Source of the DNA: Oceanicella actignis
GTDB lineage: Bacteria; Pseudomonadota; Alphaproteobacteria; Rhodobacterales; Rhodobacteraceae
Direction of reading: 5' to 3'
Assembly: GCF_008124525.1 (NCBI RefSeq)
Contig: NZ_VNHJ01000001.1
Location: forward strand, 496,001-560,000
Length of the DNA: 64,000 nucleotides
The notes beneath the pieces are model-generated. The model ran no database searches. It was not told the origin of the DNA and saw only the letters and a list, made by a program, of their open reading frames with translations. The stretch's first letter is position 1. Each line of letters opens with the position of its first letter. A program made the position numbers and the translations under genes. Of this stretch, positions 49,441 through 53,063 are shown one piece after another.

Positions 49441-50182
49441 CCGCCGGGCCTGACGGGCCGGGCGCCGGCGCGTGCGCGCGCAGGAACATGCGCTCGAGCA
49501 GCGCCCGCAGCCAGGCCTTGAGCGCGGGGTCGTGGCGCGCGAAATCGGCGTCGAGCCGCGCGGGGTCCGAGACGCCGGGGCGGCCGAAATAGTCGGCCAG
49601 CTCGCGCTTCCACGCCTCGAGAATGGCGGGCGTCACCTCGGGGTGGAACTGCAGCGCCAGCGCCGAGCCGATCGCGTAGGCCTGGTTGGGCCAGACCTCG
49701 CCGCGCGCCAGCAGCGTCGCGCCGGGCGGAAGCGCGAAGCCCTGCGCGTTGCCCGACAGCGCCATGAAGCCCGGCGGGAACAGCCCCGCGCCCTCGGCCG
49801 TCGGGACGACCGGATGAAAGCCCAGCGCCACGCGCCCCTCGGGATGCGGCCCGACCCTGGCGCCCAGCGCGTCGGCCAGCAGCTGCGCGCCCAGGCAGAT
49901 CGCCAGCAGCGGGCGCCCCAGCGCCAGCATCCCGCGCGCGAAGGCCTGCTCGTCGCGCATCCACGGCAGCGAGTCGGCGTCGGTGACCATCTGCGGCCCG
50001 CCCATGATCATGGCGCCGTCGAAGTCGCACGGATCGGGCGTCGGCTCGCCCCGCCAGGGCGAGACGACATGCAGCCGCGCCCCGCGCGCGCGCAGATGGG
50101 CGCGCGCGGCGTCCTCCTCGGGATCGTCGTGATGGGCGATGACGCAGATGCGCGGCCCGCCCGACGCGGCCGCCGCGCTCAT
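49421..50182 (-). CDS. Class I glutamine amidotransferase domain protein
   Basis: A 253-residue protein with the amidotransferase triad: nucleophile Cys in LLAICLGAQLLADALGARV, and His/Glu in ALQFHPEVTPAI. The oxyanion strand is MIMGGPQMVTD. It resembles stand-alone GMP-synthase-like amidotransferases of unknown substrate. Start 50182 overlaps the bdhA stop as ATGA, so the two are translated from one message. The 3' end overlaps the XRE-cupin gene by 20 bases. Confidence 0.87.
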   Translation of the reverse strand: MSAAAASGGPRICVIAHHDDPEEDAARAHLRARGARLHVVSPWRGEPTPDPCDFDGAMIMGGPQMVTDADSLPWMRDEQAFARGMLALGRPLLAICLGAQLLADALGARVGPHPEGRVALGFHPVVPTAEGAGLFPPGFMALSGNAQGFALPPGATLLARGEVWPNQAYAIGSALALQFHPEVTPAILEAWKRELADYFGRPGVSDPARLDADFARHDPALKAWLRALLERMFLRAHAPAPGPSGPAVSPSGT

Positions 50183-50964
50183 AGCGCCGTCCAGCCGCCG
50201 TCGACCGAGATGGTCGTGCCGGTGATCTGCTCGGCCGCGTCCGAGCACAGGAAGGCCGCGACGCCGCCGATCTGCTCGACCGTGGCGAAGCGCTTCGAGG
50301 GCTGACGCTCGAGCAGAACCTCGCGGATGACCGTCTCGCGGTCCATGCCGTATTTCTCCATCGTGTCGGGGATCTGCGCCTCGACCAGCGGGGTCAGCAC
50401 ATAGCCCGGGCAGATGGCGTTGGCGGTGATGGGCTCTTCGGCGGTCTCGAGCGCGGTCACCTTGGTCAGCCCCACCACGCCATGCTTGGCCGCCACATAG
50501 GCCGACTTGAAGGGCGAGGCCGTCAGCCCATGCGCCGAGGCGATGTTGATCACCCGCCCCCAGCCCGCCTTGCGCATCAGCGGCAGCGCCGCGGCGGTGG
50601 TGTGGAAGGCCGAGCTCAGATTGATCGCCAGGATGGCGTTCCACTTCTCGACCGGGAATTCCTCGATGCGGGCGACGTGCTGGATGCCGGCGTTGTTGAC
50701 CAGGATGTCGGCGCCGCCCAGCGCCTCGGCCGCGCGCGTCACCAGCGCGCGGCACTGCGCGGGGTCCGACATGTCGGCCTGGACGTAGATCACCCGTGCG
50801 CCCGTCTCCTCGGACAGCGCGCGCGCCAGGGCGTGGTCCTCTTCGCGGTCGGTGAACGAGTTGATCGCCACCTGCGCGCCCAGCTTCGCCAGCTCGCGCG
50901 CGACGCCAAGGCCGATGCCCGAATTCGATCCGGTCACGATCGCCGTCTTGCCCTTGAGATTCAT
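50179..50964 (-). CDS. bdhA: 3-hydroxybutyrate dehydrogenase
   Basis: A 261-residue short-chain dehydrogenase that interconverts 3-hydroxybutyrate and acetoacetate, usually in polyhydroxybutyrate turnover. Motifs: VTGSNSGIGLG (NAD), NNAGIQHVARIEEFPVEKW, catalytic SAHGL and YVAAKHGVVG. The sequence NNAGIQHV and the AYVAAKHG block are strongly characteristic of this enzyme among SDRs. GGAG eight bases before the ATG. First gene of a pair with the amidotransferase. Upstream lies a minus-strand terminator and small RNA. Confidence 0.92.
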   Translation of the reverse strand: MNLKGKTAIVTGSNSGIGLGVARELAKLGAQVAINSFTDREEDHALARALSEETGARVIYVQADMSDPAQCRALVTRAAEALGGADILVNNAGIQHVARIEEFPVEKWNAILAINLSSAFHTTAAALPLMRKAGWGRVINIASAHGLTASPFKSAYVAAKHGVVGLTKVTALETAEEPITANAICPGYVLTPLVEAQIPDTMEKYGMDRETVIREVLLERQPSKRFATVEQIGGVAAFLCSDAAEQITGTTISVDGGWTAL

Positions 50965-51080
50965 CCTCGCCGCTCCGATCTTGCCTTCGGGGCGCCCGCC
51001 CCGTTCGCGCCCGGCGCGCGCCGGGCCCCTGCGCCCATCTGGTAGCGCGGCGCGGCGCGGTTGACGAGGGGCGGCGCATC

Positions 51081-51107
51081 AAAAAAACGCCCTCCGAAGA
51101 GGGCGTT
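51081..51107 (-). terminator. Intrinsic terminator with T7 tract
   Basis: On the minus strand AACGCCCTC-TTCG-GAGGGCGTT, a 9-bp stem with a UUCG tetraloop, followed by seven T (51081-51087 read as A on the plus strand; the last two T pair in the stem). It is the only textbook terminator with a long T run in the window, and it terminates leftward transcription. Confidence 0.88.
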
Positions 51108-51154
51108 GAGTATTTGAGGCAGGTTTCATACAGGCAAGAAACCTATCGAGCAGT
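51081..51154 (-). ncRNA. Candidate small RNA with own promoter and terminator
   Basis: An AT-rich island inside very GC-rich sequence. On the minus strand a promoter (51161-51190) is followed by about 74 bases with two hairpins. The first is AGGTTTC/GAAACCT (7 bp, 10-base loop, 51121-51144). A short single-stranded CUCAAAUACUC comes next. The second is the terminator hairpin. No open frame of any size starts here, and no minus-strand protein gene lies close upstream to explain the terminator. It sits just upstream of bdhA. Not recognised as a known RNA family. 5' end is predicted only. Confidence 0.55.
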
Positions 51155-51160
51155 GATGAC

Positions 51161-51190
51161 AAGATACGTAAACAAGACCCTGCGGCGCAA
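51161..51190 (-). promoter_or_regulatory. Promoter of the candidate small RNA
   Basis: Minus strand TTGCGC (51185-51190), 18-base spacer, TATCTT (51161-51166), predicted start near 51154. Each hexamer keeps four of the six consensus bases. Confidence 0.4.
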
Positions 51191-51263
51191 GCCGAAAGTT
51201 TGCGCCCGCCCCCTGCGCGGGGTTAGGTTGCGCCCCGGCGCGGCGCACAGAGGCGAGGCGAGG

Positions 51264-53063
51264 ATGCAGGGAATGGGGTTCCTGGCGGCGGCGACGCTAG
51301 GTCTTGCGGCGCTGATCGGCGCGGCGGCGCAGGCGGCGCCCGCGCATGGCATCGCCATGCATGGCGCGCCGGCGCTCGAGCCGGGCTTTCGCGCCTTGCC
51401 CTACGCCAATCCCGAGGCGCCCAAGGGCGGGCGAATCGTGTTCGGCGAGGTGGGCGGATTCGATTCGCTCAACCCCTACATCGTCAAGGGCCGCGCGCCC
51501 TGGGCGGTGCGCACGCTGACGGTGGAATCGCTCATGGGCCGCAGCTGGGACGAACCCTTCTCGCTCTACGGCCTTCTGGCCGAAAGCGTCGAGACCCCGC
51601 CCGACCGCTCATGGGTCGCCTTCACCCTGCGCCCCGAGGCGCGCTTCTCGGACGGCAGCCCGGTGACGCTCGACGACGTGGTCTGGTCCATGCGCACGCT
51701 GGGCGAGCAGGGGCTGCCGGGGTTCCGGTCCTCGTGGCGCAAGGTCTCGGCGGTCGAGCGGCTGGGCCCGCGCACGGTGCGCTTCCGCTTCTCCGAGCCC
51801 GACCGCGAAATGCCCCTGATCCTGGGCCTGCGCCCGATCCTGAAGAAGGACCGCTTCGCCGGGCGCGACTTCGCCCAGACCACGCTCGAGCCGCTGATCG
51901 GCTCGGGGCCCTATGTGGTCGAGGCCTTCGAGCCGGGGCGCTTCATCTCGTTCCGCCGCAACCCGGACTATTGGGGCGCGCATCTGGGCCTGAACGCCGG
52001 CCGGCACAATTTCGACGAGGTGCGCTACGAGTATTTCAAGGACGACAACGCCCGCTTCGAGGCCTTCAAGGCCGGGCTGGTCACCATCTTCCGCGAAAGC
52101 GACCCGGTGCGCTGGGCGCAGGGCTACGACTTTGCGGCCGTGCGCGAGGGGCTGGTGGTGAAGGAAGAGATCCCCAACGGCCGCCCCAGCGGCATGACGG
52201 GCTTCGTCTTCAACACGCGCCGCCCGCCCTTCGACGATCGCCGGGTGCGCCAGGCGCTGGCGCTGGCCTTCGATTTCGAATGGATCAACCGCACCCTGCA
52301 TGGCGGCGCCTATGAGCGCATCCACAGCTTCTTCGGCAATTCCGAGCTGGGCTTTCGCGGCCCCCTCGGCGCGGACGAGGCGCGGATACTGGGGCCGCAC
52401 GCCGCCGCGCTGGCGCCCGAGGCGCGCAGCGGCGCCTTCGCCTGGCCGCGCAGCGACGGATCGGGGCGCAACCGGGCCAATCTGCGCCGCGCGCGCGACC
52501 TGCTGGCCGAAGCGGGCTGGCGCGTGCGCGACGGGGTTCTGCGCGACGCCGACGGGCGCCCGCTGCGTTTCGAGATCCTGCTCTCGGGGCCGCAATACGA
52601 GGCCGCCGCCGCCGTCTTCGCCGACGCGCTGCGGGTGCTGGGCGTCGAGGCGCGGCTGCGCGTGGTCGATCCGGCGCAGTATCAGCAGCGGCTGACGCAT
52701 TACGACTACGACATGATCGTGGCGGGTTGGGCCATGTCGCTCAGCCCCGGCAACGAGCAGCGCTTCTACTGGGGGCGCGAGGGGGTGCGCCAGCCGGGCA
52801 CGCGCAACTACATGGGCGTGGACGATCCGGCGGTCGAGGCGGCGGTGGACGCGCTTCTGGCCGCCGAGGATCGCCCGACCTTCGTCGCGGCCGCCCGGGC
52901 GCTCGACAGGGCGCTGACCACGGGGGTGTATGTGATCCCGCTGTGGCGCTCGCCGGTCTCGCGACTGGCGCACCGGGCCGATCTGCGCCACCCCGAGCGG
53001 CTGCCCCTTTACGGCGACTGGACCGGATTCCTGCCCGACGTCTGGTGGCAGGAGCCGCGCTGA
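51264..53063 (+). CDS. ABC transporter substrate-binding protein, family 5 (peptide/YejA-like)
   Basis: A 599-residue periplasmic binding protein. Sec signal at 1-27 (LAALIGAAAQAAPA). The mature part starts HGIAMHGAPALEPGFRALPYANPEAPKGGRI, matching YejA-type proteins, and the SBP-5 motif is present around LEPLIGSGPYVV and FRRNPDYWG. It should bind oligopeptides or microcin-like compounds for import. No permease or ATPase gene follows on this strand within the window, so it is an orphan or pairs with genes elsewhere. GAGG upstream of ATG 51264; the frame upstream is the AT-rich small-RNA region. Confidence 0.88.
   Translation: MQGMGFLAAATLGLAALIGAAAQAAPAHGIAMHGAPALEPGFRALPYANPEAPKGGRIVFGEVGGFDSLNPYIVKGRAPWAVRTLTVESLMGRSWDEPFSLYGLLAESVETPPDRSWVAFTLRPEARFSDGSPVTLDDVVWSMRTLGEQGLPGFRSSWRKVSAVERLGPRTVRFRFSEPDREMPLILGLRPILKKDRFAGRDFAQTTLEPLIGSGPYVVEAFEPGRFISFRRNPDYWGAHLGLNAGRHNFDEVRYEYFKDDNARFEAFKAGLVTIFRESDPVRWAQGYDFAAVREGLVVKEEIPNGRPSGMTGFVFNTRRPPFDDRRVRQALALAFDFEWINRTLHGGAYERIHSFFGNSELGFRGPLGADEARILGPHAAALAPEARSGAFAWPRSDGSGRNRANLRRARDLLAEAGWRVRDGVLRDADGRPLRFEILLSGPQYEAAAAVFADALRVLGVEARLRVVDPAQYQQRLTHYDYDMIVAGWAMSLSPGNEQRFYWGREGVRQPGTRNYMGVDDPAVEAAVDALLAAEDRPTFVAAARALDRALTTGVYVIPLWRSPVSRLAHRADLRHPERLPLYGDWTGFLPDVWWQEPR

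Follow-up and report, generated by a model that had tools for sequence, protein, structure and literature searches.

How Alphaproteobacteria adjust cell division to growth conditions is understood only in part; RNA-based links are few, and the leader that yields UpsM is one of them. In Rhodobacter sphaeroides the mraZ leader was reported to be 268 nt long, with UpsM (RSs0682), the leader-derived sRNA of the dcw cluster, corresponding to its first 206 nt as a result of termination, and RNase E was reported to leave a 130-nt 3' part of UpsM. StsR (RSs0827) of the same organism was described as an sRNA of 72 nt (PMC8307010) that binds UpsM and the dcw leader and opens an RNase E site (PMC8307010, PMC8625941), and its expression was described as dependent on RpoHI/RpoHII (PMC8307010). 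For EcpR1, a trans-acting sRNA of Sinorhizobium meliloti, an effect on the cell cycle was reported (PMC4414408). Here we describe an AT-rich patch in the genome of Oceanicella actignis, a member of the large and ecologically important family Rhodobacteraceae, that judging from its sequence is very probably the gene of a regulatory RNA of about 74 nt. The complementarity of this RNA to the leader of a division-operon mRNA suggests that it helps to control cell division.

The small RNA gene

The window (the whole stretch of 64,000 nt that was analysed) contains the following features around the sRNA gene:

50179..50964, minus strand: bdhA (encoding 3-hydroxybutyrate dehydrogenase), the downstream neighbour (TIGR01963, 374.6 bits, cut-off 307.05)
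51081..51154, minus strand: small RNA gene of 74 nt (from the 60-copy alignment and a sequence check)
51081..51107, minus strand: intrinsic terminator, consisting of a stem-loop (51107-51086) and a T7 tract (51087-51081)
51115..51154, minus strand: core, nt 1-40 of the sRNA, identical in 55/60 copies
51119..51136, minus strand: nt 19-36 of the sRNA, complementary to GCAGGTTTCATACAGGCA of the mraZ leader
51121..51144, minus strand: hairpin 1, AGGTTTC (nt 11-17) with GAAACCT (nt 28-34)
51161..51166, minus strand: -10-like TATCTT (TA at -12 in 58/60 copies)
51185..51190, minus strand: -35-like TTGCGC (TTG near -35 in 59/60 copies)
51195..51202, minus strand: upstream element CAAACTTT (CAAAnTTT at -50 to -37 in 48/60 copies)
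51264..53063, plus strand: family-5 extracellular solute-binding protein, the divergent neighbour (PF00496, 244.3 bits; start codon chosen)

The original prediction had described positions 51081-51190 as an AT-rich island unlike its surroundings in composition, and this was borne out: the GC content is 0.482 against 0.73 window-wide, which makes this the stretch of 110 nt with the least GC in the window, and an equally low value was reached by only 8 of the 63,890 overlapping 110-nt segments, all within 51072-51190. Read on the minus strand from 51154 to 51081, the gene has the sequence ACTGCTCGATAGGTTTCTTGCCTGTATGAAACCTGCCTCAAATACTCAACGCCCTCTTCGGAGGGCGTTTTTTT, and the A at 51154 would be the 5' end, given the promoter and the start of the conserved stretch. 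The predicted perfect hairpin with a UUCG loop followed by a T7 tract is present at 51107-51081 of the minus strand (AACGCCCTC-TTCG-GAGGGCGTT), such that the sRNA has the intrinsic terminator with a U-run that one looks for in an orphan sRNA. In line with the remark that no protein gene explains this terminator, the list of open reading frames has none that ends there. As a scan found 2 terminator-like sites against 1.1 in shuffled sequence, the number of such sites alone is weak evidence.

The second predicted hairpin is likewise present (hairpin 1, 51144-51121); in the window copy it appears in the centroid and not in the minimum-energy fold, and it recurs in the RNAalifold consensus of 60 copies, which consists of hairpin 1 and the terminator. 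In the terminator stem, five pairs have copies in which both sides are changed and pairing is kept. The seven pairs of the hairpin 1 stem are near-invariant, with one broken pair in one copy, and because they hardly vary this hairpin is beyond the reach of a covariation test. For a minus-strand stretch of 93 nt the folding energy is -25.6 kcal/mol, whereas shuffled versions average -15.4 kcal/mol (sd 2.67, z -3.82), and none of 200 shuffles folded as well.

Of the promoter-like pair that had also been predicted, the two motifs stood, with a spacing of 18 nt and positions conserved in 58-59 of the 60 copies, whereas a strict sigma-70 scan returned 0 promoter sites. By comparison, the sRNA has a promoter of its own and no host gene. 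About 47 nt ahead of the sRNA start we observed CAAACTTTT (the element at 51195-51202), which many copies retain and which may serve as an UP-like element or as the binding site of a regulator.

Searching the window against Rfam 15 gave 0 matches at the gathering score. The sub-threshold matches isrB and sau-6072 (19.5 and 21.4 bits) track the terminator and fall far short of the respective gathering scores of 35 and 50. A short open reading frame within the sRNA was considered and rejected on inspection of the alignment by eye: its ATG at nt 26-28 is altered in three copies (L065, L067 and L068), and the frame past the ATG ends variably among the copies.

Conservation across the Rhodobacteraceae

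We searched 101 genomes, namely the own genome, 60 genomes of the same family (one per genus) and 40 genomes of other families of the class. Besides the own genome, 59 of the 60 family genomes carry the sRNA, with E values of 6e-13 or better, and in the other families 26 of the 40 genomes gave a match at E <= 1, the best being 0.010. The one family genome without the sRNA (G033) is an assembly that is 74% complete, and a covariance model likewise found no sRNA in it, although its mraZ leader contains TTTCATACAGGCA. The alignment of the window copy with the 59 others has 83 columns. The suggestion that this is a regulatory RNA of the Rhodobacterales is thereby supported, by its occurrence in 59/60 family genomes, by the identity of nt 1-40 in 55/60 copies and by the compensatory changes in the terminator; the hairpins, of which the absence from related genomes would have spoken against it, are conserved in 59/60 genomes of the family.

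Among 142 genomes of the class the covariance model gave a match in 15, with 95.1 bits for the own genome, 106.5 bits for one genome of the family, and 30 bits or less for the remaining 13. As candidate relatives outside the family these low scorers were rejected, three of them being, by eye, a terminator-like hairpin without the core. With respect to a viral origin, the 40-base core word had 0 exact matches in viral contigs. Sequence comparison places the orphan sRNA gene, as well as its conservation, on secure ground.

A search of named records with a 40-base word that represents one type of terminator retrieved at least 119 stretches. Most of the record titles are those of genera or bins that we take to belong to the Rhodobacteraceae (Roseovarius, Tabrizicola, Gemmobacter, Jannaschia, Pseudooceanicola, Cereibacter changlensis and others), and a few say Alphaproteobacteria or Rhodobacterales only. 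Among the 119 stretches listed, which are cut at arbitrary places, the solute-binding protein was recognisable in 106 and bdhA in 100. A record titled Maritalea mobilis (NZ_JAHVKE010000001.1), by its name one of the Devosiaceae, also carries the sRNA. Since it is flanked by the same two neighbours (54% and 76% identical to those in the window), it is probably a mislabelled member of the Rhodobacteraceae.

We examined 60 loci, with about 1.5 kb of flank to either side except where a contig ended sooner, as it did in a few; a solute-binding protein starts no more than 300 nt away on the divergent side in 56 of them. The island had been placed on the opposite strand to the next protein gene, which holds for the gene of the solute-binding protein, but bdhA shares the strand of the sRNA. 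As the bdhA start is found within 700 nt downstream in 43 of the 60 copies, the sRNA might be taken for a cis-acting leader or attenuator of bdhA. In 2 copies bdhA is farther off, however, and 15 of the stretches keep the sRNA without any bdhA; moreover, a strong terminator separates the two. The sRNA is thus not always directly upstream of bdhA among the 60 copies, and we rejected the leader explanation, to which we give hardly any credence.

A word search of the text of open papers with two 20-base and two 13-base stretches found no report of the sRNA. It may nonetheless figure under a number in supplementary coordinate lists, for instance as Intergenic 60 or 134 of Paracoccus denitrificans (PMC5107571), as a numbered sRNA of R. 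sphaeroides, or as one of Ruegeria pomeroyi (PMC4809877). An RNA as conserved as this one can be absent from Rfam.

Complementarity to the mraZ/dcw leader

BLAST with the sRNA gave a recurrent second short exact match in the family genomes. Of 20 such places examined, 17 were upstream of mraZ and three were not (L079, L082 and L088). The MraZ domain was confirmed in two of the downstream proteins, and the frame that follows mraZ resembles what we take to be rsmH. In O. actignis the complementary leader lies outside the window, near position 413920 of the contig (G000:C1), on which the window starts at 496001. The word AGGTTTCATACAGG, which occurs in the sRNA gene too, has 32 occurrences elsewhere in the 61 genomes, 29 of them in mraZ leaders; the reversed word had 0 places in the same 61 genomes and AGGTTTCATACAGG itself had 0 in the 40 genomes of other families. 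Of the three places that are not mraZ leaders, one belongs to G032 (L082/L289) and the other two to G039. The latter are exact copies at G039:C23:292239-292252 and G039:C56:116149-116162, away from the mraZ gene of that genome (on C63).

We located mraZ in 60 of the 61 genomes (not in G022) and took 60 leaders. As G033 has no sRNA, 59 pairs were left, and 58 once the leader of G017, which is cut by a contig end, was set aside. The longest perfect complement between nt 1-42 of each genome's own sRNA and its own leader was used as the measure, instead of RNAduplex, which gave long meaningless looped duplexes. A perfect complement of at least 10 nt was found in 54/58 leaders, and it amounts to 17-18 nt in 24/59 pairs. 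In 53 of the 58 genomes the run of at least 10 nt occupies the homologous place in the leader, with 150-270 nt between it and the MraZ homology downstream; the 10-nt run of G029 sits elsewhere and was not counted as a site. Among the controls, 11/1160 shuffled leaders and 5/1076 tiles of the sRNA loci reached 10 nt (neither exceeding 11), 60 shuffled cores reached it in at most 4/58 leaders (mean 0.57), and the sense core reached it in 0/58. The leaders are related by descent, so the 53/58 and the related counts are not independent trials. An orphan base-pairing sRNA is expected to be complementary, across genomes, to a transcript from another locus, and this is seen here in 53/58 leaders and with controls.

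The leaders without a homologous run of at least 10 nt are those of G008, G014, G029, G056 and G059. The leader of G056 keeps 18 positions when G-U pairs are counted and that of G014 matches 14/18, while G029 and G059 have changed sRNA loops together with leaders that lack the site, and G008 has an intact core and a leader without the site. With G-U pairs allowed, runs of at least 12 nt occur in 50/58 leaders, but such runs discriminate less, as they are also reached by 136/1160 shuffles (maximum 17); the leaders of G021, G056 and G060 form 18-19 pairs in this way. In the 49 leaders with an ungapped word match of at least 13/18, a selection that favours conservation, 812 of the 882 positions are Watson-Crick pairs, 14 are G-U pairs and 56 are mismatched, and the word is conspicuous against the variable flanks. 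As far as complementarity can tell, the predicted pairing of the sRNA with the dcw leader is well supported.

The site in the leader covers nt ~18-36 of the sRNA, so the invariance of nt 1-17 is unexplained by it. That the core is invariant well past the pairing segment, and that G008 has the core without the site, would fit a regulatory RNA whose function is unconnected with the dcw leader, with the word serving in both places as the site of a protein or DNA-factor. This we consider improbable, for the word is always complementary to the mraZ transcript, the sense core failed to reach 10 nt in any of the 58 leaders, and three changed leaders still pair via G-U.

In C. changlensis the leader site (GCAGGCTCATACAGGCAA) is found ~217-236 nt upstream of the likely GTG start, which would put it ~25 nt upstream of the RNase E cut position if the leader is colinear with that of R. 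sphaeroides. In the 49 leaders that were folded, the site is on average 0.57 unpaired, with an opening cost of 5.7 kcal/mol and a hybrid energy of -32.4 kcal/mol, values that stand without control windows. The linker next to the site goes from 0.39 to 0.40 predicted unpaired on binding, which is no change, and a simple fold therefore does not predict an effect of pairing on RNase E cleavage. A further observation is a leader element around CGAGCAGACATCCCCCCAGGTGG that is very strongly conserved; it precedes the MraZ homology by 110-215 nt, and CGAGCAG occurs there in 46/58 leaders. A second contact, between nt 2-8 of the sRNA (CTGCTCG) and CGAGCAG of the next leader hairpin, may turn the pairing into a two-point clamp; this is only a suggestion, since a 7-nt match to a 14-mer in a leader of 330 nt has an estimated chance of ~0.15 and the leaders are related.

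Possible roles and relation to described systems

We think it likely that the Rhodobacteraceae have here an orphan trans-acting sRNA, equipped with a promoter and a terminator of its own, that has as its main conserved partner the long mraZ/dcw leader, which yields UpsM in R. sphaeroides. Both the length of its invariant core and its partner would make it unusual among sRNAs. In the mechanism that we propose, nt ~18-36 of the sRNA (the loop and the 3' arm of hairpin 1) would pair with GCAGGTTTCATACAGGCA of the leader, which precedes the MraZ homology by about 170-250 nt, the loop making the contact and invasion of the hairpin following, probably with the involvement of Hfq. The stability of UpsM and the leader, or their processing by RNase E, would be altered in this way and with it the expression of the dcw genes. 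That the output of dcw would be lowered is a guess by analogy with StsR. As an sRNA that is near letter-for-letter the same across some 60 genera and has a conserved site in the leader, it would make division control directly accessible by mutations that are easy to introduce.

Altered processing of UpsM/dcw is our first choice on the basis of the complementarity, and a role of UpsM as a sponge would be the second. In the latter case the direction is reversed: UpsM would titrate the sRNA, of which the main regulon would consist of other mRNAs bound via other parts of the core. UpsM was described as the most abundant sRNA of R. sphaeroides, making up ~60% of the Hfq-bound sRNA (PMC8307010), and the invariant core exceeds the leader site in length, both of which agree with a sponge. 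So does the distribution of the word TGAGGCAGGTTT, which occurs 91 times in 61 genomes: sRNA genes account for 60 of these occurrences and mraZ leaders for 2, which leaves 29 others (L281-L309), against 6 for the reversed word; this excess may possibly reflect further targets of the sRNA. The 29 places share no recurring gene, however, as far as can be judged by eye and without clustering, and the leader is the only conserved complement found, so that we regard the sponge as unlikely, albeit less so than a shared protein or DNA-factor site. One genome, which also counts in favour of the sponge, has a perfect complement of 20 nt at G032:C17:169550-169569 (in L289, G032:C17:168800-170300), just upstream of a start codon; this was seen in 1/61 genomes. 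The gene that follows reads like motB, which we presume it to be.

With our preferred reading, of an sRNA that acts on the leader, the comparison with the described systems is as follows. UpsM would be the target or partner of the sRNA and not a relative, and a long mraZ leader was reported to be a feature of the Rhodobacteraceae, as is this sRNA. EcpR1 resembles it by description, as an alphaproteobacterial trans-acting sRNA with a reported role in the cell cycle; the covariance model had no match above 30 bits in the genomes of other families.

The closest parallel is StsR, also an orphan sRNA and nearly as long, for which binding to UpsM and to the dcw 5' UTR was reported; the sRNA described here would pair with the same UpsM/dcw leader, by complementarity alone and at a different place. 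With its 72 nt and these binding partners, StsR could be thought to be the same RNA under another sequence. Both sequence and locus differ, however: the StsR probe word as printed in PMC11354728 and PMC3688512 has no match in this sRNA, and G131 (C. changlensis) and G051 hold an exact match to the probe and this sRNA at separate loci. We therefore rejected identity with StsR, which has a negligible probability. The two also differ in range: of 394 family genomes, only 2 have an exact copy of the probe word, namely G131 and G051 (in shared StsR-like surroundings), whereas this sRNA is present in 59 of 60. With up to 2 mismatches the probe word matched 4/394 genomes, but the reversed control gave 14 matches, and hence only the 2 exact matches and that in G382 were taken as real StsR, StsR-like surroundings being common to these three.

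In the G131 leader there is no run longer than 8 nt complementary to StsR. The G051 leader has two stretches complementary to the StsR word, with runs of 11 and 12 nt, namely GGGACAGTGAA in its 5' portion and GGACAGTGAAGG beside the mraZ start, and the latter would suggest that StsR pairs directly at the mraZ ribosome-binding site in this genome (L136). As these stretches differ from the one complementary to our sRNA, the two sRNAs would meet the G051 leader at different places. A broader view, which we hold tentatively and a little short of an even judgement, is that this near-invariant, family-wide sRNA is a core riboregulator of the division operon of the Rhodobacteraceae with its own dedicated site in the UpsM/dcw leader, and that this leader integrates at least two sRNAs, the other being StsR in some members of the family.
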